Positions 32,558 through 46,521 of a stretch of 64,000 nucleotides of DNA are shown here, in pieces; within the stretch, counting starts at the first letter, position 1; every line of letters starts with the position of its first letter. The stretch is taken from assembly GCF_030818255.1 (NCBI RefSeq), contig NZ_JAUTAG010000001.1, positions 2,480,001-2,544,000 on the forward strand. Reading direction: 5' to 3'. The position numbers and the translations under genes are program-made. The notes below the pieces were generated by a model. It saw only the letters and a list, made by a program, of their open reading frames with translations. It did not search any database and was not told the origin of the DNA. This DNA comes from Microbacterium sp. SORGH_AS_0969. Its GTDB lineage: Bacteria; Actinomycetota; Actinomycetes; Actinomycetales; Microbacteriaceae.

Positions 32558-32634
32558 CGTTCACCTTCGCGCGTCCAGCGTTCACCCGTCGGTCAGGGCG
32601 TGTGGCGGGGTGAGGTCGGCCGCGTTCACTGCCC
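32558..32634 (+). promoter_or_regulatory. Candidate PHO box array upstream of pstC
   Basis: GTTCACC occurs at 32559 and 32580 and GTTCACT at 32624. From 32580 the sequence can be cut into 11-base units (GTTCACCCGTC, GGTCAGGGCGT, and so on to GTTCACTGCCC), the period and consensus known for PhoP boxes of Streptomyces-type actinobacteria. The rest of the 324-base space 32462-32785 holds no gene; GGAG at 32777-32780 is the ribosome-binding site of pstC. Control by phosphate starvation is an inference. Confidence 0.5.
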
Positions 32635-32785: not shown

Positions 32786-33802
32786 ATGACCGATCTGACC
32801 ACCGAGGTGCTGCCGTCGCGCCCGGCGGGACCGCCCGAGCCCCGATCTCTGCGGAGCGCCCCCGTCGTGGGCGACCGCGTCTTCCGCAGCGGAGCCTACG
32901 CGGCCGGCATCATCACCGTGGCGGTCATGCTCGCCGTCGGAGTGTTCCTGACGGCGCGGGCGGGTGACGCGCTCGTCGTCGCCGGTCCGTCGTTCCTCAC
33001 CACGCAGGAGTGGTCGCCCGAGACGGGGACGTTCGGCGTCGCCGCCGTCCTGTTCGGCACCGTGACGATCGCACTCGTCGCGATGGCGATCTCCGTCCCG
33101 CTGGCACTCGGGACCGCGCTGCTCATCAGCGAGATCGTCCCGCCCCGGCTGCGGTCGTTCCTCATCACCATGGTCGATCTCATGGCGGCGGTCCCCAGCG
33201 TCGTGTTCGGGCTGTGGGGGGTGTTCTTCCTGCAGGCGAACGTCATCCCGGTCGCCGAGTGGATCTCGACCTACTTCGGCTGGATCCCGATCTTCGACGT
33301 GACGGATGCCGCGGGCACCCGACTCACGGAGGCGGGGGCGTTCACCTCGTCCGCGTTCATCGCCGGCATCGTGGTCGCGCTCATGGTGGTGCCCACCCAG
33401 ACCTCGGTCATGCGCGAGGCGTTCTCGCAGGCGCCGCTGGGGGAGCGCGAGGGGGCGCTGGCGCTCGGATCGACGCGCTGGGGAATGATCCGCGCGGTCG
33501 TCCTGCCCTTCGGCCGCGGCGGGATCATCGGCGGAACCATGCTGGGCCTCGGGCGTGCGCTCGGCGAGACGATCGCGGTGGTCATGATCATCTCCCCGAT
33601 CTTCACCATCAACACCCAACTGCTGAAGACGGGAACGAACTCGGTGTCGGCCCTCATCGCCCTGCGCTACGGCGAGGCGAGTCAGTTCGGTCTGTCTGCG
33701 CTCATGGCGGCGGGCCTGGTGCTGTTCATCATCACGCTCATCGTGAACTTCACGGCGTCCACGATCGTGGCTCGCAGTCGATCCGGGGCGGAGAGCACCT
33801 GA
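32786..33802 (+). CDS. pstC: Phosphate ABC transporter permease PstC
   Basis: A 338-residue inner-membrane permease with a long hydrophilic N-terminus and about six membrane segments. PstC features include DLMAAVPSVVFGLWGVFF (near residue 135) and the ABC-permease EAA loop EREGALALGSTRWGMIRAVV (near 225) followed by GLGRALGETIAVVMI. The ATG at 32786 was chosen over one at 32782 in another frame because only this one gives the transporter. The stop overlaps the pstA start (TGATG). It forms the channel with PstA and takes phosphate from the binding protein. Confidence 0.96.
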   Translation: MTDLTTEVLPSRPAGPPEPRSLRSAPVVGDRVFRSGAYAAGIITVAVMLAVGVFLTARAGDALVVAGPSFLTTQEWSPETGTFGVAAVLFGTVTIALVAMAISVPLALGTALLISEIVPPRLRSFLITMVDLMAAVPSVVFGLWGVFFLQANVIPVAEWISTYFGWIPIFDVTDAAGTRLTEAGAFTSSAFIAGIVVALMVVPTQTSVMREAFSQAPLGEREGALALGSTRWGMIRAVVLPFGRGGIIGGTMLGLGRALGETIAVVMIISPIFTINTQLLKTGTNSVSALIALRYGEASQFGLSALMAAGLVLFIITLIVNFTASTIVARSRSGAEST

Positions 33803-35115
33803 TGGCGATCGTCACCCCCGAGGCGCCCACCGCCGACGAGGGCGTGCCGCGTCAGCCGATCCGCACGACGATTCCCCTCCGAGACGGTCACGTGGGAGAG
33901 CGCCGCGACCTGCGCACCGTGCCCTTCGGCGATCGGTTCGACCTGCTCGGCAGCATGGCCGCGAGCCTCGCCCTGTCGTCGCTGCTGTTCGGCTGGCTCA
34001 CTCCGATGACGGGCGGCATCGGCTGGGCGGTGCTGTCGTTCATCGCGTTCCTCGGGATCTACGCGGTCATGTCGTCGCTGCGGGCCGACCGTCTCGCGGT
34101 GCGCGAGCGCATCGTGACGGCGCTGTTCTACTCGGCCGGGATCCTGCTCCTCGGAGCGCTGACGTTCGTGCTCTTCTTCACGCTGATCCGCGGATCCTCG
34201 GCGCTGTTCCACGGCAACTTCTTCGTCGAGACCATGACGACGGCGGGTCCGCTCGACCCCCTGACCGTGGGCGGTATCGCGCACGCCGTCGTGGGCACGC
34301 TCATCCAGATCGGCATCGCCCTCTTCATCACCATTCCCCTGGGGGTGATGACGGCCGTGTTCCTCAACGAGGTCGGCGGACCCTTCGCGCGCTTCGTGCG
34401 GACGGTGTCGGATGCCATGACGGCGCTGCCCTCGATCGTGGCGGGCCTGTTCGTCTATGCGGCCGTCGTCACCCTGATCACCCACGAGCGCTCGGGCTTC
34501 GCGGCATCCATCGCCATCAGCGTGATGATGCTGCCCATCATCATCCGCGCCTCCGATGTGGTGCTGCGCCTGGTTCCCCACAATCTCCGCGAGGCCTCGT
34601 ACGCCCTCGGGTCGAGTCGCTGGCGCACCGTGTGGAACGTCGTCCTGCCGACGTCGCGCTCGGGACTGGTCACGGCGGTGATCCTCGGGACGGCCCGAGG
34701 GATCGGCGAGACTTCGCCCGTGCTGCTGACCTCCGGCGTCACGGCGCAGATGAACCTCAACCCCTTCTCGGGGCCGATGATCTCGCTTCCGCTGCAGGTC
34801 TTCGACTTCGTCAAGTCGCCCGAGCCGAACATGATCGCCCGCGGTTTCGGTGCGGCGGCGACCCTCGTCCTGCTCGTCCTGACGCTTTTCATCATCGCCC
34901 GCCTCATCGGCGGACGTGGTCCTGGGCAGCTCTCGGACCGTCAGCGTCGCGCCGCGATGGCCGCGTCGGCGCGAGACCTGCGTCGCATCAGCGCGGATCC
35001 CGCGCAGCACTCGCGGGCCGTGCGGCGCTTGTCCACGGCATCCCGTGTCCCGTTCTTCGGCGGGCGCGCAGCCCCCGTCGCTCGTCCCCGATCCCCCGAG
35101 GAGAACCCGTCGTGA
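33802..35115 (+). CDS. pstA: Phosphate ABC transporter permease PstA
   Basis: A 437-residue permease, longer than the usual 280-300 residues because of an N-terminal cytoplasmic stretch with two or three additional hydrophobic segments and a basic C-terminal tail of about 60 residues. The core has DAMTALPSIVAGLFVYAAVV (near 200), the EAA loop LREASYALGSSRWRTVWNVV (near 265) and ARGIGETSPVLLTS. The ATG overlaps the pstC stop, and its own stop overlaps the pstS GTG, so the three genes are translationally coupled. It forms the transmembrane channel with PstC. Confidence 0.95.
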   Translation: MAIVTPEAPTADEGVPRQPIRTTIPLRDGHVGERRDLRTVPFGDRFDLLGSMAASLALSSLLFGWLTPMTGGIGWAVLSFIAFLGIYAVMSSLRADRLAVRERIVTALFYSAGILLLGALTFVLFFTLIRGSSALFHGNFFVETMTTAGPLDPLTVGGIAHAVVGTLIQIGIALFITIPLGVMTAVFLNEVGGPFARFVRTVSDAMTALPSIVAGLFVYAAVVTLITHERSGFAASIAISVMMLPIIIRASDVVLRLVPHNLREASYALGSSRWRTVWNVVLPTSRSGLVTAVILGTARGIGETSPVLLTSGVTAQMNLNPFSGPMISLPLQVFDFVKSPEPNMIARGFGAAATLVLLVLTLFIIARLIGGRGPGQLSDRQRRAAMAASARDLRRISADPAQHSRAVRRLSTASRVPFFGGRAAPVARPRSPEENPS

Positions 35116-36707
35116 ACCTTCGTCGCCGCCTGGGCCGCACCGCGGCCATCCTCGCGGTCGTGACGCTCGTGGCTCTGGTGCCCGTTCCCGCTCAGGCCGA
35201 CGGCTACGTCCGCATCTCGGGTTCGGGGTCGACCTGGTCGCAGAACGCGCTCGATCAGTGGCGCAAGAACGTCGCGAACAACTACGGCATGACCGTGAAC
35301 TACTCGGGAACCGGTTCGTCGGCGGGGCGGAACGACTTCATCAATCAGACGGTGGACTTCGCCGTCAGCGAGATCCCCTTCCAGAGTCAGCCCGAGGACA
35401 ACTCCCCGCCCGAGAACCCCACGAGCGGGTACGCGTACATGCCGATCGTCGCCGGCGGCACCTCGCTCATGTACAACCTCAAGATCGGCGGCAAGCGGGT
35501 CACCAACCTGCGTCTGTCGGGTGAGGTCATCACGAAGATCTTCGCGGGCCAGATCGCGAAGTGGAACGACCCGGCCATCCAGGCCGACAACCCGGCGCTC
35601 GCGATGCCCGATGTCTCGATCACGCCGGTGTATCGCTCCGACGGGTCGGGCACGAGCGCGCAGTTCACGCTGTGGATGTCGAAGCAGTTCGGGAGCATCT
35701 GGACCTACGGCATGCGGTCGCAGTTCCCGCAGGTCACCGACGCCTTCAAGGGGCAGAACGGTTCGCTGGGTGTGGCGGGCTACGTGAGCCAGAACTACGG
35801 CGAGGGAGCGATCACCTACGTCGAGTACTCGTACGCGATGAAGTCCGGCTTCCCCGTCGTCAAGATGCTCAACAACGCCGGGTACTACGTCGAACCGACC
35901 TACCAGTCCGTCGCGGTCGCGTTGATGTCGGCCCAGATCAACAACGATCTGACGCAGAACCTCGACGGGGTCTACAACAGCAACGATCCGCGCGCGTATC
36001 CCATGTCGAGCTACTCGTACATGATCGTGCCGACCGAGACCAATAAGGTGTTCACGCCCGAGAAGGGCCGCACCCTGAGCCGCTTCGCCACGTACATGCT
36101 GTGCGAGGGGCAGCAGCAGGCGTCCGCCCTGGGGTACTCGCCGCTGCCGATGAACCTCGTCCAGGCCGGATCCGACGTGCTCAAGAGGATCCCCGGCACC
36201 GAGGGCGGCGTCGACTTCAACAACTGCAACAACCCGACCTTCAAGCCCGGCGACTCCCCGCGGAACAACCAGCTGGCGCTGACCGCGCCGGCACCGCCCG
36301 ACTGCGACCGCAAGGGCGCGACGCAGTGCGTCGAGGGCACCGGCGGTGCGCAGGAAGAGACGCCGACCACGGGAACGGGCGGGGCGAGCGGCGGCGCGAA
36401 CAGCGCGGATGCCGCGGCGGGTGCCGCGGGCACGACCGGCGGTGGAACCGACGCGGGAGCGGCCGGCACGGCACCGGGCACGACCGGAGGCACGGCGGCC
36501 GACCCGGTGTACGACGCGAACGGCAACCTCGTCTCGGCGGCAGCGGGAGGGACGTCGGCCGCCGTCTCGGCCCCCTTCTCGCTCGCCGAGAACGGGTGGG
36601 GGACGCCCCAGATCATCATGCTCGCGGCGGGACTGCTCGTGGTCGCCGCGATCCTCATCCCGCCCGTCGTCGGTCGTCGATCCCGCGGAGAAAAAAGACC
36701 ACTCTGA
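35112..36707 (+). CDS. pstS: Phosphate-binding protein PstS, C-terminally membrane-anchored
   Basis: A 531-residue secreted phosphate-binding protein. The signal peptide (VTLVALVPVPAQA, cleavage near residue 32) has no lipobox cysteine. The binding domain has the PstS landmarks ISGSGSTWSQNALDQW, NYSGTGSSAGRNDF, FAVSEIPF and VYRSDGSGTSAQFTLW. After about residue 400 comes a Gly/Ala/Thr-rich linker, a membrane segment (IIMLAAGLLVVAAILIPPVV) and a basic tail RRSRGEKRPL. So it is tethered by its C-terminus rather than by lipid. The GTG start overlaps the pstA stop. It is the first of three binding-protein-like proteins in the operon. Confidence 0.93.
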   Translation: MNLRRRLGRTAAILAVVTLVALVPVPAQADGYVRISGSGSTWSQNALDQWRKNVANNYGMTVNYSGTGSSAGRNDFINQTVDFAVSEIPFQSQPEDNSPPENPTSGYAYMPIVAGGTSLMYNLKIGGKRVTNLRLSGEVITKIFAGQIAKWNDPAIQADNPALAMPDVSITPVYRSDGSGTSAQFTLWMSKQFGSIWTYGMRSQFPQVTDAFKGQNGSLGVAGYVSQNYGEGAITYVEYSYAMKSGFPVVKMLNNAGYYVEPTYQSVAVALMSAQINNDLTQNLDGVYNSNDPRAYPMSSYSYMIVPTETNKVFTPEKGRTLSRFATYMLCEGQQQASALGYSPLPMNLVQAGSDVLKRIPGTEGGVDFNNCNNPTFKPGDSPRNNQLALTAPAPPDCDRKGATQCVEGTGGAQEETPTTGTGGASGGANSADAAAGAAGTTGGGTDAGAAGTAPGTTGGTAADPVYDANGNLVSAAAGGTSAAVSAPFSLAENGWGTPQIIMLAAGLLVVAAILIPPVVGRRSRGEKRPL

Positions 36708-36717
36708 TCGGGGATTT

Positions 36718-36737
36718 TGCAACGTTCAAGCGTTGCA
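36718..36737 (+). other. Small hairpin after pstS
   Basis: TGCAACG (36718-36724) pairs with CGTTGCA (36731-36737) around a 6-base loop, 11 bases after the pstS stop. No T-tract follows. It may mark a processing or partial termination point before the surface-protein genes. Confidence 0.4.
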
Positions 36738-36843
36738 GTCACCGCGGCGGTGCCTCGTTGACACCGCGTTCATCCCGCCGTCACCCGCCGCCCGTCCACT
36801 TGTCTCGACGCTTCTTCGAGAAGCACTCTGCAAAGGAAACCTC

Positions 36844-39510
36844 GTGTCTGAACACCGTGAGCGGCGAACCGCTGCGTCCCGCTCCGCGGGGCGACGCGCA
36901 CGGACGGCGTCCGGTGCCCGGGCCGCGGATAGTGTCGTGTCGCGCGGGCGCCGGGCCCTGGCATCCGTCGTCGTCGGCACCCTCGCGGGTCTGACGATCT
37001 TCGCCCTGACCGGCGGGACAGGAGCGCTGTCCGCGATCGCCCCGTCGGCCGTCGCGGACGACTCCTCCGCGGTGACCGTCACGGCGAAGGATCAAGACCT
37101 CGACGTCGAGAACGCCCCGTTCCCCGACCTCTCGGTGACCGTCTCGCAGACGCGGGCGTTGGAGTCGCAGGGCATCGTCGTGTCGTGGACCGGGGGAAAG
37201 CCCTCGACCGTGCCGAGCTCGCAGATCGGCGGAGCGGACTTCCTGCAGGTCTTCCAGTGCTGGGGCGACGACCCGGCGCATCCGGGCACCCCCGACCGGA
37301 CGACCTGCCAGTACGGGCTCGGAGGCGTCCCCGGCTCGCACCGCGACGATCCCCGCGACACCGACGCATCGGTCGCCGCAGAGGACAAGCCGTACACGGT
37401 CTTCGGTGACGGGTTCGCCACCCCGACCTACACGTCCATTCCCTTCCGGGGAGCGAACGGCCGCACCGTCGCCAACGTCGTCGACGGTGCCTACTCGTAC
37501 ACCAAGGACGCCGACGGCAAAGACGTCCTGGCCGACATGAACACGAACGAGTTCTTCTCGAAGTACACGACCAACATGGTGTCGTGGGCGGGGTCCGGCG
37601 GCGACGGCTCCGGGTCGGTGAAGTTCGAGGTCCAGACCGCGCTGCAGTCGCAGGGTCTCGGCTGCGGCTCACCCGTGACGGCCGCCGACGGCAGCGTGTC
37701 CGGTTCGAGCTGCTGGCTGGTCATCCTGCCTCGCGGGCAGCAGGACGGCGGGGCGTCCTTCATCACGAAGTCGGGGCTCTTCTGGGACGCGTGGAAGCAC
37801 CGCATCGCGGTCAAGCTCGACTTCAAACCCCTGGGCGTCCGGTGCCCCATCGGCGCGGCCGAGCGGCAGCTCGCGGGAAGCGAGCTGATCAGCCGGGCGG
37901 TCTCGTCGTGGCAGCCCGTGGTCTGCAACCAGTCGGGCGGCTCGGTCTACTCGGCCATCACCGGGGCGGAGTCCGACGCGGCGCGCGCGGCGAACGGCAC
38001 CGCACCGGCACCGCTCGCCCTGACCTCGCGCCCCCTGGATCCGAGCCTGGGCACCGACTCGCTGCGATACGCCCCCGTGGCCATCACGGGAGCGGCGATC
38101 TCGTTCGCGATCGACCGGAACCCGCGCCCGGGAGACGACACCGTGCCCGAGGACGTCCAGAAACGCGTCGGACTACCCTTCACCTCTCTGAAGCTGACCC
38201 CGCGACTCGTGGCGAAGCTGCTCACGAACTCGTACCTCGACTCGCTGCCGACCTTCGCCGACCGGGACCATCTGAGCCACAAGGACGGCGACGAGCGCGT
38301 GTACAACCCGCGCAACCTCGTCAGCGACCCCGACTTCCTCGCGATCAACGATCCCGAGTGGAAGTACCAGGCGCTCGCCGCGGCGTCCCTCGCCGACGCG
38401 CTGGTTCCGCAGGGGCGCTCCGACGCGGCCTGGGCGATCTGGCAGTACGTGATGAGTGACGAATCGGCTCGTCAGTTCCTCGCCGGCACCCCGGACGAAT
38501 GGGGGATGACGGTCAATCCGTGGAGCTCGACGGATGCCGAGAAGAACCCCACGAAGGCCGCGTTGACCCTGCCGCGCGAAGACTTCCCCAAGGCCGACCC
38601 GGTCGAGCAGGCCGAGACGCCGTCGGCGGGGCCGGTCAACCTCGTGACCTGGCGTCCCTACGTCAACGATCTCGACTCCGGCGCGTACAACACGCTGCGC
38701 GGCGACGGTCTGACGCTCGGGGCGTGGGATCCGATCGCCGTGCCACCGAAGTACGGCAAAGCCGATCGGAGTCTGCCCGGGCGTCAGGCGGTCGTGGCGG
38801 TGACCGACACGGCATCCGCGGCCCGGTACCAGATCGTCACGGCGTCGCTGAAGAATCCGGCGGGGGAGTTCGTGGGAGCGACGACGGATGCCATGGCCGC
38901 CGCGGCCGCGGCCATGACGCCGACCGCCGGGCAGGCGCAGGTCGTGGCGTTCGACCCCGGTTCCCCGAGTGCGATCGCCGCGCGCGGCGCGTACCCGCTC
39001 ACCATGCCCGTGTACGCGGCCATCAACCCGAAGTCCTCCGACGCGGAGCTCCGCAAGAGCTACGCCGCCTTCATCCGCTTCGCCGCGAAGGACGGGCAGC
39101 GTCCGGGAACGGCTCCCGGGCAGCTGCCGCAGGGATTCGTTCCGCTGCCCGAGGGATGGCAGACCCTCGCCCTCACGGCCGCGGACGACATCGAGGCGGG
39201 ACGGATGCCGAGCCTCGGCGGCACACCGACCCCCGCGGCGAACGGCCCCGCGGCGGGCGTGCCCTTCCCCAGCGGCGGCGTCGTCGGCAGCGCCCCGGCC
39301 GCGGCCGCCCCCGCACCCGCGGCCCCGGCGCAGGCCTCCCCCCCGGACCCCGTGGCATCCGGTTCCGCCGCCCCCGCTCGGACGGGTGGCACCACACCCG
39401 ACGATCCGGACATGGGCGCCCTGCCGGCCGCGCTGCCGGCCAGTGTCGCGGGTGGGCTCGCCGCCGCCTTCGCCGTGCCCCTCCTCGGACGACTGCGCCG
39501 ACGGCTCTGA
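36844..39510 (+). CDS. Large membrane-anchored PstS-like/substrate-binding surface protein
   Basis: An 888-residue secreted protein. A basic N-terminus (MSEHRERRTAASRSAGRRAR) leads to a hydrophobic signal segment (ASVVVGTLAGLTIFALTGG). The ectodomain has conserved cysteines in pairs (FQCWGDD...TTCQYG, LGCGSP...SSCW, RCPIG...VVCNQ). A middle part recalls PstS: RYAPVAITGAAISFAIDRNP and KLTPRLVAKLLTNSYLD correspond to the phosphate-binding protein hinge region. A Pro/Ala linker, a C-terminal hydrophobic segment (ASVAGGLAAAFAVPLLG) and RLRRRL end the chain. The GTG at 36844 has an AAAGGAAA site. No LPXTG is present. Function unknown; the position inside the pst locus suggests a role in phosphate or polymer capture. 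Confidence 0.8.
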   Translation: MSEHRERRTAASRSAGRRARTASGARAADSVVSRGRRALASVVVGTLAGLTIFALTGGTGALSAIAPSAVADDSSAVTVTAKDQDLDVENAPFPDLSVTVSQTRALESQGIVVSWTGGKPSTVPSSQIGGADFLQVFQCWGDDPAHPGTPDRTTCQYGLGGVPGSHRDDPRDTDASVAAEDKPYTVFGDGFATPTYTSIPFRGANGRTVANVVDGAYSYTKDADGKDVLADMNTNEFFSKYTTNMVSWAGSGGDGSGSVKFEVQTALQSQGLGCGSPVTAADGSVSGSSCWLVILPRGQQDGGASFITKSGLFWDAWKHRIAVKLDFKPLGVRCPIGAAERQLAGSELISRAVSSWQPVVCNQSGGSVYSAITGAESDAARAANGTAPAPLALTSRPLDPSLGTDSLRYAPVAITGAAISFAIDRNPRPGDDTVPEDVQKRVGLPFTSLKLTPRLVAKLLTNSYLDSLPTFADRDHLSHKDGDERVYNPRNLVSDPDFLAINDPEWKYQALAAASLADALVPQGRSDAAWAIWQYVMSDESARQFLAGTPDEWGMTVNPWSSTDAEKNPTKAALTLPREDFPKADPVEQAETPSAGPVNLVTWRPYVNDLDSGAYNTLRGDGLTLGAWDPIAVPPKYGKADRSLPGRQAVVAVTDTASAARYQIVTASLKNPAGEFVGATTDAMAAAAAAMTPTAGQAQVVAFDPGSPSAIAARGAYPLTMPVYAAINPKSSDAELRKSYAAFIRFAAKDGQRPGTAPGQLPQGFVPLPEGWQTLALTAADDIEAGRMPSLGGTPTPAANGPAAGVPFPSGGVVGSAPAAAAPAPAAPAQASPPDPVASGSAAPARTGGTTPDDPDMGALPAALPASVAGGLAAAFAVPLLGRLRRRL

Positions 39511-39601
39511 CGCCGCGCCGGTCTCCGCTCCCCAGACCCGTCCTCTCGCAACTGAACACCCGAATCACATCTGTGCACCACACCAATCGAAAGGCATTGA
39601 G

Positions 39602-40702
39602 TTGAAGCTCAAGAAGCTGGCCGCCATGGGCGCGGCTTGCGGTATCGCGATCGCCGGCCTCGGCGTCGCCTCCATGGCCTCGGCCGAGCCGGTCTCGAAC
39701 AGCTACTCGCTGGTCGGTTCCGACACGCTGCAGGACGCGGCCAACGCGATCACGAACGGAACGACCCTCACGGGCTCGCTCGTCCGTGTGACCTCCACCA
39801 ACAAGACGCTCGGCAGCTTCGACGCGTTCGGTTCCACGGCCATCCAGACCAAGCAGGGCGGTCCGTTCTTCGGCCGTCCCGCCGGTTCGGGCGCGGGTGT
39901 CACGGCGCTCCGCGCCTCGATCACGGGTGCGCTGTACAGCGGCAACGCCGGCGTGCCGGCCCGCCAGATCACCGGCCAGGTCGACATCGCCCGCTCCTCG
40001 AGCGGTCCCGGCAACAACGCCAACGCCAACGGTCTGCTCGCGTACGTGCCCTTCGCGCGCGACGCGGTCGGTTTCGCGTTCCGCGGTGGCGACTCGTCGT
40101 GGTCCACGCTGACGCCCGCCCAGCTGAAGTCGATCTACGAGTGCAGCACGACGTCGATCGGTGGCGTCACCGTCAAGCCGCGCCTGCCCCAGAACGGCTC
40201 GGGGACGCGCAACTTCTTCCTCGGCGCCATCGGCAGCCCGACGCTCGGCTCGTGCGTCACCGACGCCAACGGCACCACGCCCGAGAACGACGCGTCGGTG
40301 CTCGGCACGAACGACCTCATCCCGTTCAGCGCCGCCAGCTGGATCGCCCAGGCGAACGGCGCCACCGGGGTCAACACGACGACGACCTCCGGTGTGAAGT
40401 TCGGCTCGCCCGTCAACCAGGAGCCCGCCTTCACGGGCACCGCGCCCAACCTCGTCCCCAACGTCGACTTCTATAAGGACGCGACCTTCGGCCGCGACAC
40501 CTACCTGGTCGTCGAATACGCCCGCATCGTCCCCGGTGGCGACAAGTACGACGCGGGCCTCGCCAACCTCGTCAACCCGTCGGTCACCAACAGCCTCACC
40601 AGCTTCGGTTCGCTGCCGATCTCGGTCGGCGCGGTGAAGAAGAAGTTCGGCTTCCTCGCTCCCTCCACCACCACCATCCAGCGCGCGTTCGCGACGCTGT
40701 GA
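39602..40702 (+). CDS. Secreted PstS-like substrate-binding protein
   Basis: A 366-residue protein from a TTG start at 39602, preceded by AAAGG at suitable distance; this start gives a perfect signal peptide (KKLAAMGAACGIAIAGLG, cleavage after MASA). The mature chain resembles type 2 periplasmic binding proteins of the PstS kind: SYSLVGSDTLQDAANAITNG, GQVDIARSSSGPG, AYVPFARDAVGFAFRGGDSS, LTPAQLKSIYECS and NGSGTRNFFLGAIG. It has no membrane anchor and no lipobox, so it is released or held by partners. Codons are strongly biased to C-ending forms, suggesting high expression. It may be a second phosphate or phospho-ligand binder. Confidence 0.82.
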   Translation: MKLKKLAAMGAACGIAIAGLGVASMASAEPVSNSYSLVGSDTLQDAANAITNGTTLTGSLVRVTSTNKTLGSFDAFGSTAIQTKQGGPFFGRPAGSGAGVTALRASITGALYSGNAGVPARQITGQVDIARSSSGPGNNANANGLLAYVPFARDAVGFAFRGGDSSWSTLTPAQLKSIYECSTTSIGGVTVKPRLPQNGSGTRNFFLGAIGSPTLGSCVTDANGTTPENDASVLGTNDLIPFSAASWIAQANGATGVNTTTTSGVKFGSPVNQEPAFTGTAPNLVPNVDFYKDATFGRDTYLVVEYARIVPGGDKYDAGLANLVNPSVTNSLTSFGSLPISVGAVKKKFGFLAPSTTTIQRAFATL

Positions 40703-40731
40703 CCTCTGAGAACGGAAAAGGACTCCACCTC

Positions 40732-42294
40732 ATGAACATCAAGAAGTTCGGGACGATCGTCGCCGCGGCGACGGCGGTCTCGCTTCTCGCGGGCGGCTTC
40801 TCGGCCACCGCGGCGAACGCGGCCACGGGTGCGCCGCAGTTCTACCTCCTCGACGGCGGTGACGGACACCTCCTCGCCGACGACACCGTCCTGAACTGGG
40901 ATTCGCAGGTCGTCGCCACGCCCGGACCGACCGTCGACGACATCACGGTGCTGTTCCCCGGCACGGCCGACGCGACCGGTGTCGCGTACTTCATCGCCCC
41001 CCAGGGCAAGGAGACCACGATGTCGGCCTGGACGGCGTCCAGCGACGGCGCCCTCACCCCCGGCACGGTCGACATCATGGCCCCGAACCTGACGCTCTCG
41101 GGCTTCCTGTTCGGCAACTGGGCCCAGGTCAAGGCGAACGGCGGTGACTTCAGCCTCGGCTTCGCGTGGACCCGCAACAACGGTCTGAACATCGCGGATG
41201 CCGGCGTGAAGTACGTGGGCATCCACGTCAAGCCCGGCGGCGACTGGACGTTCGACCCGCAGAGCTCCGGCCCCTCGGCCACGGCTCCGACCATCACGAC
41301 CACCGCTCTCGGCACGGCCAAGGTCGGTGCGGCGTTCTCGCAGACGCTCACCGCCGACGGCACCGCCCCGATCACGTGGTCGATCAAGGACGGCGGGGCC
41401 CTTCCCGCCGGTCTGACCCTCGACGGCGCGACCGGTGTCGTGTCGGGCACGCCCACCACCGCCGGCTCGTACAGCTTCACCGTCGTCGCCACCAACAGCG
41501 CGGGCAGCAACGAGAAGGCGTTCACCGGCACGGTGGACACGGCCGCTCCGACCGCGCCGACGAAGCCCTCGGGCTCCTCGGCGAACAAGGTCGACGTGGC
41601 CGACCCCGCCAAGGGTGCGAAGACGATCACCGTCCCCGCGGGCGCCGCCAACAAGGGCAAGACCCTCGAGGCGTGGGCCTGGTCCGACCCGACCGACCTC
41701 GGTCAGGTCACCGACGACGGCAACGGCAACTTCTCGGTGGACATCTCGAGCCTGCCGGGCGGCGAGCACACCATCGCCCTGGTCGCCCCCGGCGACGCGA
41801 CGTACACCGTCCTCGCCTGGGACACCTTCACGAAGCAGTCCGCTGCCGGTGACACCACCACCGACGCCGTCGACCTGTCGGCCGCGGTCACCGCGAGCGA
41901 CCTGTGGTCGCTGAACGCCGAGGCCACCAAGGTCGACTTCGGCAGCGTGGCGCGCGACAAGAGCGTCACCAAGTCGCTCGGCAAGGTCACCGTCATCGAC
42001 GACCGCAACGTTCTCAAGGGCTGGGACCTCACCGCCGCGTGGACCCCCTTCAAGAACGGCGCGGGCGACGAGATCCCCGCCACCGCGCTCGCCGTGGCGC
42101 CCAAGGCCTACACCGGCTACACCCCCATCACGGGTGTGACCGTCGGCACGGGTTCGAAGATCGCCTCCAGCACGGCCGTCACGACGCTCACCACCGGTGC
42201 GCTCTTCGACGCCGACCTCACCTTCACCGCCCCGAAGGACGCGCAGACGGGCGACTACACGTCGACCCTGACGGTCACCCTCACCTCCAAGTGA
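40732..42294 (+). CDS. Secreted WxL-like surface protein with Ig-like domain
   Basis: A 520-residue secreted protein; signal peptide ends at ANA near residue 30. A beta-rich N-terminal domain is followed by a putative immunoglobulin-like (He_PIG) domain, PITWSIKDGGALPAGLTLDG through GTPTTAGSYSFTVVATNSAG. The C-terminal about 130 residues look like a WxL domain: DLWSLNAEATKVDFGSVARD, GKVTVIDDRNVLKGWDLTA and a final DYTSTLTVTLTSK. In Firmicutes WxL domains bind peptidoglycan non-covalently and partner with DUF916 proteins, and one follows here. AAAGGA precedes the ATG. Codons are highly biased, suggesting an abundant surface protein. Confidence 0.78.
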   Translation: MNIKKFGTIVAAATAVSLLAGGFSATAANAATGAPQFYLLDGGDGHLLADDTVLNWDSQVVATPGPTVDDITVLFPGTADATGVAYFIAPQGKETTMSAWTASSDGALTPGTVDIMAPNLTLSGFLFGNWAQVKANGGDFSLGFAWTRNNGLNIADAGVKYVGIHVKPGGDWTFDPQSSGPSATAPTITTTALGTAKVGAAFSQTLTADGTAPITWSIKDGGALPAGLTLDGATGVVSGTPTTAGSYSFTVVATNSAGSNEKAFTGTVDTAAPTAPTKPSGSSANKVDVADPAKGAKTITVPAGAANKGKTLEAWAWSDPTDLGQVTDDGNGNFSVDISSLPGGEHTIALVAPGDATYTVLAWDTFTKQSAAGDTTTDAVDLSAAVTASDLWSLNAEATKVDFGSVARDKSVTKSLGKVTVIDDRNVLKGWDLTAAWTPFKNGAGDEIPATALAVAPKAYTGYTPITGVTVGTGSKIASSTAVTTLTTGALFDADLTFTAPKDAQTGDYTSTLTVTLTSK

Positions 42295-42311
42295 GCTGAC
42301 CGGCGCCGGTG

Positions 42312-42342
42312 GCACGGGGGGATCCTCGCGATCCCCCCGTGC
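42312..42342 (+). terminator. Hairpin between WxL-like and DUF916 genes
   Basis: A perfect 13-bp stem (42312-42324 with 42330-42342) has a 5-base loop CTCGC. The following bases are TGCCACACC, so there is no U-tract. It probably reduces read-through into the downstream membrane-protein genes or protects the upstream message. Confidence 0.6.
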
Positions 42343-42410
42343 TGCCACACCATCAGCCCTCGTTCACCTCGGCGACACGCTCGTGTCGCCCCCACCTGCG
42401 GAGATAGAGC

Positions 42411-43559
42411 GTGTTCTCTTCGACCCTGCGGCACCGCCTCCCGGCTCTGGGTGCCGTCTCCCTCGTCACCGCGGCGATCATCGCCGGCCTCGGGATGCCG
42501 TCCGCCGCCACGGCTGCCACCGGCACCGCCGTCCTCGCGACCGACGATGCGCCCGCCGCCGGGAGCGAGTCGGCCGTCACCGTCGGCGTCGCCACCCGCC
42601 CCGCCGGAGAGGACGGGCGCCCCGACGGGCGGTCCCGCTTCACCTTCGCCGCCGACCCGGGACAGACGGTCACCGATCGCGTGCTCGTCGGCAACACCGG
42701 CACGGCCCGCCAGGACTTCACCGTCTACGCCACCGACGCGTTCAACGACGACGCCGGCGAGCTCTCCCTGCTCCCCACGGATGCCACTCCCACCTCGGTC
42801 GGGTCGTGGATCCGCTTCGACGACGGCAGCGACCGCGTGACGTTCGGCCTCGAGCCGCAGGAAGTGCGCCTGCTGACCTTCACCGTCGCGGTACCGGCGG
42901 ACGCGACCCCGGGCGATCACGTCGGCGGGGTCGTGGCATCCGTCCTCGAGGCGGGCGCGCAGGTCACCGTCGACCGCCGCGTCGCGACCTCGGTCTTCGC
43001 GCGGGTCGCCGGTGACCTCCAACCGCAGCTGTCGCTCACGAGCTACGAGGCGTCGTATCAGGGGGACTGGTGGAACCCGTTCTCCGGGCACGTCCAGCTC
43101 CACTACACCGTGAGCAACCCCGGCAATGTCGCTCTCGCCGCGAACCTCACGTCGGGCACGCGAACGTGGCTCGGCATCCCGGCGACGGGGGAGCAGGGCG
43201 GCAAGGTTCCCGTCGTGCTGCCGGGCAACAGCGCGTCGTACGAGTCGACGGTCGACGGTGTCGGCCAATGGCTGTACCTGAACCCGTTCACGACCCTCAG
43301 CCCCTTCGTGGAGTCGCCCGACGCGTCGATGCAGGTGGTGGTGACGCCGATCACGCGTGACGCGGTGGCGTTCGCGGTTCCGTGGACGGTGCTGATCCTG
43401 GGAGTGCTGGCGGCGCTCGCGGTCCTGTTCTCGCGCTGGCGCCGGCGTCGCGACGAGGTGCGTGCCCGTGAGTGGATGGACTTCGTCGCCGAGACCGCGG
43501 CCGCGGACGCCGCCGCGGACGCCGCGGCGCTCGCGGGAACTCGGGCGGACGGTTCATGA
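42411..43559 (+). CDS. DUF916-like (WxL-interacting) membrane protein
   Basis: A 382-residue protein: signal peptide ending at TAA near residue 35, an N-terminal beta domain (RSRFTFAADPGQTVTDRVLV, then NTGTARQDFTVYATDAF) matching the DUF916 peptidoglycan-binding-like domain, a second beta domain (LQLHYTVSNPGNVALAANLT region), one membrane segment (FAVPWTVLILGVLAALAVLF) and an Arg-rich cytoplasmic tail. DUF916/DUF3324 proteins in Firmicutes are partners of WxL proteins. GGAG at 42400-42403 supports the GTG start. The stop overlaps the next gene (ATGA). Confidence 0.85.
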   Translation: MFSSTLRHRLPALGAVSLVTAAIIAGLGMPSAATAATGTAVLATDDAPAAGSESAVTVGVATRPAGEDGRPDGRSRFTFAADPGQTVTDRVLVGNTGTARQDFTVYATDAFNDDAGELSLLPTDATPTSVGSWIRFDDGSDRVTFGLEPQEVRLLTFTVAVPADATPGDHVGGVVASVLEAGAQVTVDRRVATSVFARVAGDLQPQLSLTSYEASYQGDWWNPFSGHVQLHYTVSNPGNVALAANLTSGTRTWLGIPATGEQGGKVPVVLPGNSASYESTVDGVGQWLYLNPFTTLSPFVESPDASMQVVVTPITRDAVAFAVPWTVLILGVLAALAVLFSRWRRRRDEVRAREWMDFVAETAAADAAADAAALAGTRADGS

Positions 43560-44356
43560 CGCGTCCCCGGCGATCGGCGCCGCACGGGGCGATGCCCCCG
43601 GTCGCGTCGCGACGCGTCGCCGCCGCGGGGATCGCGCTCGCCCTCGTCGTGCTCGCGGGTTCGGGTGCGGCGAGCGCCTCGGCTTCCCCGACGGATGACC
43701 CCGGCACCCTGTCCGTGACGATCACCGACGGATCGACGGCGACACCGTCTCCTCCCGTGTCGCCGGTGGCGACCGGGGGATCGAGCGTTCCGGGCGGGTC
43801 GGTTCCCGCCGGCGGCACGAGGCCGGTGCCCCTGCCCGCCACGGGCTCGAGCGGCTCCGGCGGCGGGGGCGTCGCCCCCGCGAGCGAGGTCAGCGTGGCC
43901 GGCATGGTCTACGTCGGGGGACTGAACGCCTCCGCGTTCCCCGAGCCCGATCCCACCGCCGGGATCGTCGACGTGTGGTTCACGGTGCGCAACGCCGCCT
44001 CGACCCCGATCGACGCGACGGCGGACTTCTGGATGGATGCCGGGATGTTCTCGCAGCGTCTGGATGCCGTCGACGGCGTCCAGGTGACCGCTCTGCAGCC
44101 GGGCGAGAGCCGGGTCGTCTCGGCTCGCCTCCGCCACGGGGGCCAGTGGACGCTGCTGTCGACCCACGTGACGCTCACCCCGCCGGAAAGCGTCGACGGC
44201 GTCGCCCTGACGCCGGTGACCCGTGACGCCCTCACCCTGCTCTTCCCGTGGGTGATCGCGGCCGCCGTCCTCCTCGGCGGTCTCGTCGTCCTGGTCGTGC
44301 AGATCGGCCGGGTGAGCGGTCGGGGCGAAGCGACTCCCGTGGCGGCGACGACGTGA
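43556..44356 (+). CDS. DUF916-related membrane protein, truncated paralogue
   Basis: A 266-residue protein with a signal segment (VAAAGIALALVVLAGSGAAS), a Gly/Ser/Pro-rich linker, one beta domain (IVDVWFTVRNAASTPIDATA) and a membrane segment with basic tail. Its end, LTPVTRDALTLLFPWVIAAA, aligns with VTPITRDAVAFAVPWTVLIL of the preceding protein, so the two share the membrane-proximal domain. The N-terminal DUF916 domain is missing and replaced by the linker. It overlaps both neighbours by four bases (ATGA and GTGA), indicating tight coupling. A structural partner role is inferred. Confidence 0.75.
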   Translation: MTRPRRSAPHGAMPPVASRRVAAAGIALALVVLAGSGAASASASPTDDPGTLSVTITDGSTATPSPPVSPVATGGSSVPGGSVPAGGTRPVPLPATGSSGSGGGGVAPASEVSVAGMVYVGGLNASAFPEPDPTAGIVDVWFTVRNAASTPIDATADFWMDAGMFSQRLDAVDGVQVTALQPGESRVVSARLRHGGQWTLLSTHVTLTPPESVDGVALTPVTRDALTLLFPWVIAAAVLLGGLVVLVVQIGRVSGRGEATPVAATT

Positions 44357-45306
44357 CCCTCCTCAATCGTCCCGCGGGCGCCGGAGCCGGCACCGCCCCG
44401 CGCCGCCCGCCCCGCCCGCCGCGCCGTCCGCCCCGCCCTCGTCCGACCTACGCGCCGCTGTCGCCGACGCAGGTGTTCCTGCGCGGGATGCTCGTATCGG
44501 TATCGGTGCTCGTGCTGGTCTTCCTGCTCAACCTCCTCGTCATCAGTCACGTCTCGCACTTCGCCGCGCAGCAGCAGCTGCGCGATACGTTCCGCGCTCA
44601 ACTCGCCGCGGGGACCGCACCCGTCAGCGAGGGCGATTTCGAGGATCACCTCCTGGCGGACGGGGCACCGGTGGGCATCCTGTCCATCCCGCAGCTCGGC
44701 ATCGACGAGGTCATCTCCGAAGGGACGACATCCGGCGTGCTGATGCACGGCCCCGGTCATCGCCGCGACACCGTGCTGCCCGGTCAGGCGGGGGTGAGCG
44801 TGATCATGGGACGCGCCGCGGCCTTCGGCGGCCCGTTCGCTCGCCTGCAGGCGCTGCAGCCGGGCGAGACCTTCACCGTGCGGACGGGGCAGGGCGAGCA
44901 GACGTTCGCGGTGCTCGGCGTGCGCTACGCCGGCGACCCGACCCCACCGGCCCCCGTGCGCGGTGAGAGCCGCCTCATCCTCATCACGGCTCGGGGCGGC
45001 CCGTACCTGCCGACCGGGATCGCCTACGTCGACGCGCGGGCGACAGGCCCCGCGGTGCCGGCGGGTGCGCGCCAGACGACGTCGATGACCCTGCCGCCCG
45101 AGGCCAAGCCGCTCGCCACCGATATGACCACCGTCTGGGCGCTCATCTTCGCGTTGCAGTTCCTCGTCGTCGCGGAGTTCGTGGCCGTCTGGGCGTATCG
45201 CCGCGTCGGCTGGCAGAAGACGTGGATCGTCTTCGCCCCCGTCCTCCTCCTGGCGAGCGTGTTCGTTGCCGACCAGCTCGTCCGCCTTCTTCCCAACCTT
45301 CTCTGA
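44353..45306 (+). CDS. Sortase-fold membrane protein without catalytic residues
   Basis: A 317-residue protein: Pro/Arg-rich cytoplasmic start, a membrane segment (LVSVSVLVLVFLLNLLVI), a sortase-like beta-barrel and two C-terminal membrane segments. Sortase landmarks are GILSIPQLGIDEVISEGTTS, GVLMHGPGHRRDTVLPGQAG, then the strand ending VIMGRAAAFGGPFARLQALQ. The catalytic His expected after IxG is Arg154, the Cys expected in the TLxTC strand is Ala213 (LILITARGG), and the Arg eight or so residues later is absent. So it is unlikely to be a transpeptidase and may be a binding or scaffold protein. It is translationally coupled to the gene before it. Confidence 0.82.
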   Translation: MTLLNRPAGAGAGTAPRRPPRPPRRPPRPRPTYAPLSPTQVFLRGMLVSVSVLVLVFLLNLLVISHVSHFAAQQQLRDTFRAQLAAGTAPVSEGDFEDHLLADGAPVGILSIPQLGIDEVISEGTTSGVLMHGPGHRRDTVLPGQAGVSVIMGRAAAFGGPFARLQALQPGETFTVRTGQGEQTFAVLGVRYAGDPTPPAPVRGESRLILITARGGPYLPTGIAYVDARATGPAVPAGARQTTSMTLPPEAKPLATDMTTVWALIFALQFLVVAEFVAVWAYRRVGWQKTWIVFAPVLLLASVFVADQLVRLLPNLL

Positions 45307-45318
45307 GCGGTATCGATC

Positions 45319-46521
45319 ATGACCTCCACCCCCGAAGCCCACGATCCGGCCTCCGAAGCCCGCGAGGGTGTCCGCGACAGTCCGCGCGCCGACCTCCCGC
45401 GCCCCGACCTCGAGTACACCGAGGTCGTGCCGCTCGACGCGGCGTCACCCGCGTCCGATCCGTACATGACGGATGTGCTCAGCGCCGACGAGGCGCGCAT
45501 CATCGCCGAGATCGAGCTCGAGAACCTCAGCGCGGGGATGGCGGGTGTGCCCGCTGCCGATGCCCCCTCCACCCGCCGTGCGGGTCGAACGGCTCCCCGT
45601 CCCGTCGGTGTCGACACCCCCGCGCTGGTCACCACCGCGTCCCCGATCGACGCGCACACGGCGGTGCTGGTCCCGCCGTCCTCCGCTCCTCTCGGTGAGG
45701 TCGCGGCATCCGTTCGACCCGCTCCGATCGATCCGCCCGCGAGCCCGCTCTCCGAATTGGATGCGCGATCGATCTCGGCGTGGTTCGGCGATCACCAGGT
45801 GCTCCTCGACGTGTCGCTGACCATGCCCGCCGGACAGGTGACCGCCCTCATCGGTCCGTCCGGCTGCGGCAAGTCCACGTTCCTGCGCATCCTCAACCGG
45901 ATGCACGAGCTCGTCCCCTCGGCGGCGCTCGCCGGGGAGGTGCTGCTCGACGGTGACGACATCTACGACTCGGGGCACCGACTCATCGACGCGCGCAAGA
46001 ACATCGGCATGGTGTTCCAGAAGCCCAACCCCTTCCCGGCGATGTCGATCTACGACAACGTCATCGCGGGACTGAAACTCACCGGCAAACGCGCCGCGCG
46101 CGACGAGAAGGACCACCTCGTCGAGACGTCGTTGCAGAGCGCCGGGCTGTGGAAAGAGGTCAAGGACAGGCTGAGGGCTCCCGGCGGCGGCCTGTCGGGC
46201 GGTCAGCAGCAGCGCCTGTGCATCGCCCGCTCGCTCGCGATCAAGCCCAAGGTGCTGCTGATGGACGAGCCGTGCTCGGCGCTGGATCCCACGTCCACGC
46301 GCGTCATCGAGGAGACGATGGGCGAACTGCAGAAAGAGCTGACGATCGTGATCGTCACGCACAACATGCAGCAGGCGCAGCGCGTATCGCAGCAGTGCGC
46401 CTTCTTCCTGGCATCCCAGGGGCAGCCCGGTCACATCGTCGAGCACGGCGACACGGATGCCATGTTCGACTCGCCCATCGACCCGCGCACCTACGACTAC
46501 GTCAACGGGCGCTTCGGGTAG
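45319..46521 (+). CDS. pstB: Phosphate ABC transporter ATPase PstB with N-terminal extension
   Basis: A 400-residue ATPase. The last about 255 residues are a complete PstB: Walker [22 protein letters not shown]-loop [19 protein letters not shown], signature [19 protein letters not shown], Walker [16 protein letters not shown] and the switch His in [14 protein letters not shown]. About 145 residues precede it, Pro/Ala/Asp-rich and probably disordered, with an acidic helix [20 protein letters not shown]. PstB normally has only about 10 residues there. It lies 12 bases after the sortase-like gene and powers PstCA, from which it is separated by about 10 kb of surface-protein genes. Confidence 0.95.

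Follow-up and report, generated by a model that had tools for sequence, protein, structure and literature searches.

A second Pst lineage in actinobacteria, linked to surface-protein genes and a catalytically dead sortase

Pst is among the best-known bacterial nutrient importers, yet 23 of 118 genomes sampled at class level carry a dead sortase that marks a second Pst lineage, in an operon of surface proteins with parts mostly named 'hypothetical protein' or 'sortase' in the sources. What such an operon is for is the question raised by a locus of Microbacterium sp. SORGH_AS_0969, analysed in a window of 64,000 nucleotides (contig NZ_JAUTAG010000001.1, bases 2480001–2544000 of a single-contig 3.94 Mb genome). 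Ten genes, all on the + strand, span positions 32786–46521 of this window, as read directly from the sequence and its translations. Between pstS and pstB lie six surface-protein genes in the same direction as the pst genes, as a sequence-only reading of this DNA had described. That reading proposed a wall-spanning complex for phosphate capture or sensing, which may stand as a fair interpretation, partly supported by the present results; these add a separate Pst paralogue, a pseudoenzyme sortase and two predicted PstS-fold surface proteins. By its parts the system is a Pst importer, and by its context it is an unusual surface assembly. We give about even chances to its being a phosphate-starvation-induced second Pst-type ATP-binding cassette (ABC) importer, with a membrane- and wall-tethered capture complex and the dead sortase as a scaffold. 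Gene content, linkage, a separate Pst clade, a dead active site, predicted PstS folds, anchoring and PHO-box-type sites appear to support it at the level of sequence.

The possibility of an ordinary pst operon carrying an insertion was rejected, on the basis of a second pst locus and a separate PstB clade. The same genome also has a pstS–pstC–pstA–pstB operon within 2608000–2622000 (L012), giving two PstB in total. At least two PstB were counted in all 42 carrier genomes examined, which represent 42 of the 49 other carriers then known; eight chosen Microbacterium non-carriers had one PstB in seven cases and two in one. A PstB tree (n = 76), with module sequences hand-picked for spread and 'canonical' meaning outside any module locus, separates 42 module proteins from 33 others by a branch of length 1.55 with support 100/100. 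The PstB of locus L175, assigned to neither group, falls on the module side. TIGR00972 is by far the best family for the window PstB, which scores slightly below its cut-off (Table 1), and a few module PstBs in other genomes exceed that cut-off. The window protein retains the Walker A and signature motifs. Its N-terminal extension looked promising as a further feature and was discarded, being variable and of low complexity across 19 loci. Two diverged Microbacterium copies (L105 and L106) group with other families in the tree, which suggests that the block may have been transferred between lineages. A third, long-branched kind of PstB was also seen at four loci (L167, L171, L190 and L196); it scores up to 400.8 bits against TIGR00972 and lies on the canonical side of the tree, apart from the rest.

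Compared with the PstSCAB systems of E. coli, Streptomyces and Mycobacterium, the operon shares homologues of PstC, PstA, PstS and PstB, most of the phosphate ligands of PstS and PHO-box-type 11-nt repeats upstream. It differs by a PstB of a separate clade, which every tested carrier has in addition to another PstB, by a PstS that is anchored through a C-terminal helix and mostly has Glu for Asp56, and by two extra PstS-fold proteins and the surface proteins inside the operon. In addition, no PhoU was found among the ten proteins in family-model searches.

The association with pst genes is not confined to this strain. The search was begun from the dead sortase, and a pst gene lies on the same strand within 13 kb at 100 of 104 dead-sortase loci, the four unlinked ones (L049, L145, L146 and L158) all being at contig ends. 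A module lying mostly far from pst would have counted against the sequence-only reading, and the loci show the contrary. These 104 loci, not all of them independent, comprise 68 from a scan of a species-genome collection, 10 order-level or paralogous loci (13 fetched less the three same-genus copies L108–L110) and 26 class-level loci; L201 and L202, also retrieved, were left aside. Among 107 tallied loci, the arrangement of the window is the most frequent: 45 show it without pstC, which the flank limit removes from many loci, and four more show it with pstC. In six loci pstB is ahead of pstC, and in L227, from another class, the pst and surface genes are on opposite strands. The link to pst thus persists when the gene order is rearranged. 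Among 16 phylum-level sortase loci, all three dead ones are linked to pst and none of the 13 active ones is near it, with a 300-bit threshold for PstB, hits of 65–155 bits being taken as other ABC ATPases and three of the control loci (L230, L237 and L239) being short.

The closest named relatives, judged by the sortase-fold protein, are Microbacterium. Occurrences at order, class and phylum level nevertheless led us to reject a feature restricted to this genus. The block is found in at least 13 named genera among the 68 loci, and 18 of the 72 genera covered by the class-level sample have the dead sortase. With the own genome counted, this sortase is carried by 22 of 119 genus genomes, 8 of 109 at order level and the 23 of 118 at class level; in the phylum sample, 12 of 129 match the sortase search, most of the added ones being active sortases. 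Independently of the sortase search, the 118 class-level genomes include 24 with the 888-type protein (named after the 888-residue protein of the window), 23 with the dead sortase and 22 with both (the same handles where listed); the assemblies of the three genomes that have just one of the two are broken into 190 to 500 contigs. One genome, G065, holds both L105 and L108 and thus two modules; L106 belongs to G115. Four small draft genomes (G225, G252, G301 and G313; 1.0–1.7 Mb, 60–100% complete) retain both a canonical and a module PstB, so that the module seems worth its cost even in very small actinobacterial genomes.

The marker of the block is itself unusual. The window protein matches the sortase family PF04203 (43.2 bits over a threshold of 26.6) and reaches 58.9 bits with the class E model, below the cut-off of 160. 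What is missing, in every row with data, are the catalytic Cys and His. Both columns were anchored by alignment to solved sortases and to 13 same-phylum homologues showing His and Cys. Among the best 120 of 1164 homologues plus the query, all 121 rows have Arg in the His column, and in the Cys column 120 have Ala and one has Ser. When deep relatives are included, the His column contains Arg in 114 and Lys in 4 of 118 rows with data, and the Cys column Ala in 103, Ser in 14, Thr in one and Val in one of 119; the row sets used for the sortase and PstS residue counts include some loci twice. In a tree of 40 sortases, one branch with support 100/99 separates the 27 dead from the 13 active. An active sortase anchoring surface proteins was consequently rejected. 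The protein shares with actinobacterial class E sortases (SrtE1, 5cuw) the sortase domain, similarity around the GPGH and GPF motifs and an N-terminal membrane helix, and it departs from them by the replacement of His with Arg or Lys and of Cys with Ala, Ser, Thr or Val, by two C-terminal hydrophobic helices and by its separate branch. Two oddities were noted in this family: at L086 (9900–10420), a kinase-like coding sequence abuts a dead-sortase fragment with pstB next to it, an arrangement that looks like a deletion of the module, and one protein, P0069, combines kinase and sortase domains.

In 96 rows of module PstS, the position of E. coli Asp56 is occupied by Glu in 82, Asp in 10 and Ser in 2, with 2 gaps, against Asp in 19 of 19 canonical rows with data; 3 of the 10 Asp rows (L118, L120 and L127) are encoded at the distal end of the locus and might represent additional PstS genes located beyond pstB. 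The window PstS has Glu here, lacks the canonical Asp56 pocket and is classed as a variant rather than as canonical PstS. The Phe11 position is Trp in 91 of 96 rows. Other phosphate ligands are conserved (Ser38 and Arg135 in 90 each, Ser139 and Gly140 in 94 each). A C-terminal helix is present in 91 of 96 module PstS and in none of 21 canonical ones, and a lipobox-like motif in 2 of 96 versus 19 of 21, from which the operon PstS is predicted to be held in the membrane by this helix rather than by a lipid. In eight Microbacterium loci (L024, L026, L028, L031–L034 and L060), an extra PstS gene lies 3' of pstB; unlike the operon PstS, these copies have Asp at the Asp56 position in six cases and Glu in two.

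Two further proteins of the block, of 888 and 366 residues, are predicted to have the PstS fold. The larger one consists of a signal helix, a beta-rich N-terminal domain (~77–335), a PstS-fold domain with an insertion (336–786), a linker and a C-terminal membrane helix; no fold could be assigned to the N-terminal domain, the PstS domain dominating the match lists. Relatives retrieved with the L115 member mostly bear the name 'hypothetical protein'; 'PBP domain-containing' and 'ABC-type phosphate transport system' are used for a few. A multiplicity of PstS-fold proteins within a single organism, with extracellular ones among them, is familiar from PstS1–3 of M. tuberculosis and from DING proteins. 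Here, the two paralogues are far diverged, one has an additional N-terminal domain, and they share one operon with WxL-like and DUF916 proteins.

These pockets lend some weight to an alternative, possible although we hold it unlikely, in which the importer would take up another oxyanion or a phosphorus compound (organophosphate or polymer-bound phosphate) while still belonging to the Pho regulon. Glu in place of the key Asp in 82 of the 94 module rows with a residue, Trp at the Phe11 position, two extra PstS-fold proteins with altered yet conserved pocket residues and the deep, separate PstB clade all point that way. On the other side are the four ligands retained in at least 90 of the 96 rows, and the fact that E. 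coli PstS with Asp56 changed to Asn was crystallised with phosphate, according to the title of entry 1ixi.

Expression under phosphate starvation was addressed through PHO boxes, whose repeat unit is GTTCACC. In actinobacteria, such boxes consist of paired 11-nt direct repeats that precede pstS (PMC7866108). A first scan with strict GTTCACC and six spacings gave scores of at least 12/14 upstream of the DUF916 gene in 26 of 80 loci, the 888-type gene in 7 of 76, the PstS-like gene in 8 of 80, pstC in about 5 of 20, pstS in 3 of 69 and the others in 0–1. GTTCATC was then admitted and the spacing fixed: two GTTCAYC units 11 nt apart, matching at least 12 of 14 positions, were counted against 60 permuted consensuses with the same degenerate letters, on locus sets thinned by similarity and upstream of predicted starts (for the 888-residue gene, 36937 was used instead of 36844). 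As a check of the method, 20 of 21 regions upstream of canonical pstS reach this threshold. In the deduplicated module loci, pairs precede the 888-type gene in 21 of 56 (permuted mean 0.62, highest 6), the DUF916 gene in 18 of 56 (mean 0.42, highest 4) and pstC in 3 of 20 (mean 0.02, highest 1). They are rare or absent 5' of the second DUF916-related gene (1/56), the sortase gene (1/70), pstA (0/24), pstS (0/50), the Ig gene (0/51; immunoglobulin-domain, Ig) and pstB (0/72). Deeper loci, a set partly overlapping the first through L105–L117, have pairs upstream of pstC (4/21), the PstS-like gene (8/28), the 888-type gene (3/26) and the DUF916 gene (3/21), and in none of 134 regions upstream of the other six genes.

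In the window itself, the array at 36757–36789 scores 12/14 for two overlapping pairs. Strict GTTCACC over the 64-kb window gave a single match, on the minus strand inside pstA (35100). A candidate box before pstC, with GTTCACC at 32559 and 32580 and, seen by eye, GTTCACT at 32623, was left unclaimed, the units not being 11 nt apart. Directly 3' of the WxL-like gene, the region 42290–42360 folds with -45.5 kcal/mol (z -5.66), and, in a set thinned by similarity, a perfect stem of at least 12 bp follows this gene in 22 of 55 loci, no other gene being followed by one in more than 3 of 58; the hairpin is likely a terminator or a processing element inside the operon. Because PHO pairs stand before the starts of segments and the hairpin follows the WxL-like gene, the block looks like several phosphate-responsive segments, and PHO-box-type repeats upstream of several of them argue for expression at low phosphate.

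An alternative is a dedicated phosphate sensor, in which the second Pst and its surface proteins would read phosphate outside the wall and signal to PhoR/PhoP, import being left to the canonical Pst. The presence of at least two PstB in all 42 carriers examined, the altered pocket of the 888-residue protein and the lack of PhoU among the ten proteins are compatible with this role. We nevertheless consider it improbable: with Walker A and signature motifs kept in the window PstB, transport looks intact, there is no kinase or regulator among the ten genes, and a module marked by a dead sortase in just 22 of 119 genus genomes cannot be a general Pho sensor.

The wall part of the block was announced by the sequence-only reading as a WxL-like Ig protein and two related DUF916-type proteins. 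The WxL domain PF13731 is undetected in the window's own Ig protein and is found at E<=1 in 9 of 34 aligned members (best E 6.5e-7). PF06030 (DUF916) scores 24.3 bits against a threshold of 27.3 in the window DUF916 protein alone and 27.4 with frame neighbours, and it matches 30 of 30 aligned members, window included, at E<=1. The second protein resembles the C-terminal half of the DUF916 protein (hhalign 99.7%, E 3.2e-25), with no DUF916 match at E<=1 in 28 aligned members, window included: the two are related as claimed, and only the first is of DUF916 type. Csc or WxL–DUF916 clusters frequently include an LPxTG-anchored protein; here, the one LPATG sequence noticed, in this second protein, was rejected as an LPxTG anchor, since it is internal and unconserved in the 28-row alignment (LPxTG motifs were checked by eye only). 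Some relatives of the block (L058, L065, L078 and L117) have a second Ig-profile match.

The minimum of a Csc cluster is one small and one large WxL protein, according to PMC9772566. The window has a single WxL-like protein, which leaves it short of this minimum. What is shared with the Csc or WxL–DUF916 clusters of Firmicutes is a WxL-like C-terminal domain beside a membrane-anchored DUF916 (WxLIP) protein; the differences are the single WxL-like protein, its embedding in a Pst operon and the absence of a DUF3324-type match at E<=1 in the window DUF916 protein. The resemblance of the WxL-like, DUF916, Ig and sortase-fold proteins to Firmicutes surface clusters (PMC9772566) could suggest that the block serves the cell surface or adhesion during phosphate hunger, in the manner of a pilus or a Csc cluster, with the pst genes as regulatory hitchhikers. 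This appears very unlikely, given that pst subunits of a private clade are retained through rearrangements and across classes, that the DUF916 and WxL parts are lost in some deep loci, and that a sortase without Cys and His is not expected to polymerise pilins. Chance neighbourhood, or an ordinary pst operon with an insertion confined to Microbacterium, fits the patchy occurrence in the genus (22/119) and has a negligible probability, being refuted by conservation across classes, pst linkage, the separate PstB clade and co-occurrence with the 888-type protein.

Two more DUF916 proteins are encoded elsewhere in the own genome (L013, 6303–7379, and L014, 6407–8182), with no pst gene over threshold in the 14 kb stretches around them. 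A phosphoenolpyruvate carboxylase gene is found some 3 kb away from one of them; for the other, a neighbouring frame weakly matches the Ig/WxL profile (60 bits).

According to the starvation-induced importer proposed above, phosphate hunger would lead PhoP to switch on the segments. PstC, PstA and PstB would form the importer, to which the membrane-anchored PstS would deliver its substrate, while the two further PstS-fold proteins, one large, anchored and with an altered pocket, the other small and secreted, would extend or gate the capture. The secreted PstS-like and WxL-like proteins would move to the wall, where the WxL-like and DUF916 proteins might tether the complex to peptidoglycan. The secreted partners would be held to peptidoglycan and membrane by the DUF916 protein together with its half-size relative, with the anchored PstS and the 888-residue protein positioned at the membrane. 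The dead sortase would not be an enzyme but a membrane scaffold or receptor that binds the anchored tails, or neighbouring proteins, and does not cut them. What we infer in this scheme is that the parts assemble into a single complex, that this complex binds the wall, and that it transports phosphate or a phosphate compound as its cargo. A bolder version, which we put forward tentatively and hold less probable than the scheme itself, would see the block as an ancient system of actinobacteria, in which a distinct lineage of Pst has its own wall-tethered antenna of several proteins. Three PstS-fold proteins would relay phosphate, or else a phosphorus compound, through the thick wall to PstCAB, and they would be organised by the pseudosortase, an enzyme for binding sorting signals that has become a docking receptor for membrane-anchored proteins.

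Several observations weigh against the proposed importer. A canonical Pst coexists with it, so that keeping another importer of the same ion calls for an explanation; candidates are another form of phosphorus, very low supply and sensing. The pocket of the 888-residue protein is altered and not phosphate-like, and Asp is not universally replaced in module PstS, being kept in 10 of 96 rows. Fewer than half of the loci have PHO sites above the threshold and, in the window, the 36757 array alone passes it; the PstS-like gene has them in 1 of 53 loci (permuted mean 0.08, highest 1), and the GTTCAYC scan was not blind, this form having been adopted after the first scan revealed GTTCATC units. No PstB was found in the stretch examined at L142 and L146, and the 888-type protein was undetected by profile at L228. 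Lastly, the divergent loci L106, L141, L144, L147 and L150 lack the DUF916 and WxL-like genes, or these escaped detection there, so that the wall part would be inessential to the core.

In the literature searched, with most subscription papers and all preprints outside it, no account came up of WxL, DUF916 or sortase-fold genes within a Pst operon, nor of a conserved inactive sortase family; PMC9723661 proved unrelated. If wall-spanning capture is true, the system would illustrate the way in which a scarce ion reaches a membrane transporter in bacteria with thick walls. It would also give the conserved pseudosortase family a testable job, and it places WxL-like and DUF916 proteins in a setting beyond gut Firmicutes.

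Table 1. Genes and sequence elements of the Pst-linked block (positions in the window).
Feature	Position	Strand	Evidence
pstC, permease subunit	32786-33802	+	TIGR02138 248.7 bits, cut-off 196.45
pstA, permease subunit with N-terminal extension	33802-35115	+	TIGR00974 219.2 bits, cut-off 193.45; model match starts at residue 103
pstS, low-complexity linker and C-terminal membrane helix, no lipobox	35112-36707	+	TIGR00975 229.1 bits, cut-off 205; hydrophobic stretch 501-519
PHO-box-like array, three 11-nt units GTTGACACCGC GTTCATCCCGC CGTCACCCGCC, 5' of the 888-residue gene	36757-36789	+	sequence; scan with permuted-consensus control
Gene of the 888-residue protein, GTG start	36844-39510	+	
Secreted protein of predicted PstS fold, 366 residues, TTG start	39602-40702	+	no membrane helix besides the signal peptide
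Secreted Ig-domain protein, WxL-like C-terminal domain (GWDL)	40732-42294	+	PF05345; PF13731 in relatives; alignment
Strong RNA hairpin directly 3' of the WxL-like gene	42308-42346	+	folding energy; conserved stem
PHO-box-like pair 5' of the DUF916 gene, 11/14 consensus positions by eye, under the counting threshold	42351-42372	+	
DUF916 / WxL-interacting protein (WxLIP_PGBD), C-terminal membrane helix	42411-43559	+	PF06030; hydrophobic stretch 321-339
Membrane-anchored protein lacking a DUF916 domain, related to the DUF916 protein in its C-terminal half	43556-44356	+	hhalign
Pseudosortase, a class E sortase-fold membrane protein with a dead active site (His replaced by Arg, Cys by Ala)	44353-45306	+	PF04203; residue counts; PDB alignments
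pstB, ATPase of a distinct PstB clade	45319-46521	+	TIGR00972 336.8 bits, cut-off 343.2; tree

The several 4-base overlaps reported earlier could be read directly at three junctions (pstA/pstS, DUF916 gene/second protein and second protein/sortase), and pstC and pstA overlap by one base. The remaining junctions are gaps of 136 bp between pstS and the 888-residue gene, 91 bp between the latter and the PstS-like gene, 29 bp between the PstS-like and Ig genes, 116 bp between the Ig and DUF916 genes and 12 bp between the sortase gene and pstB.

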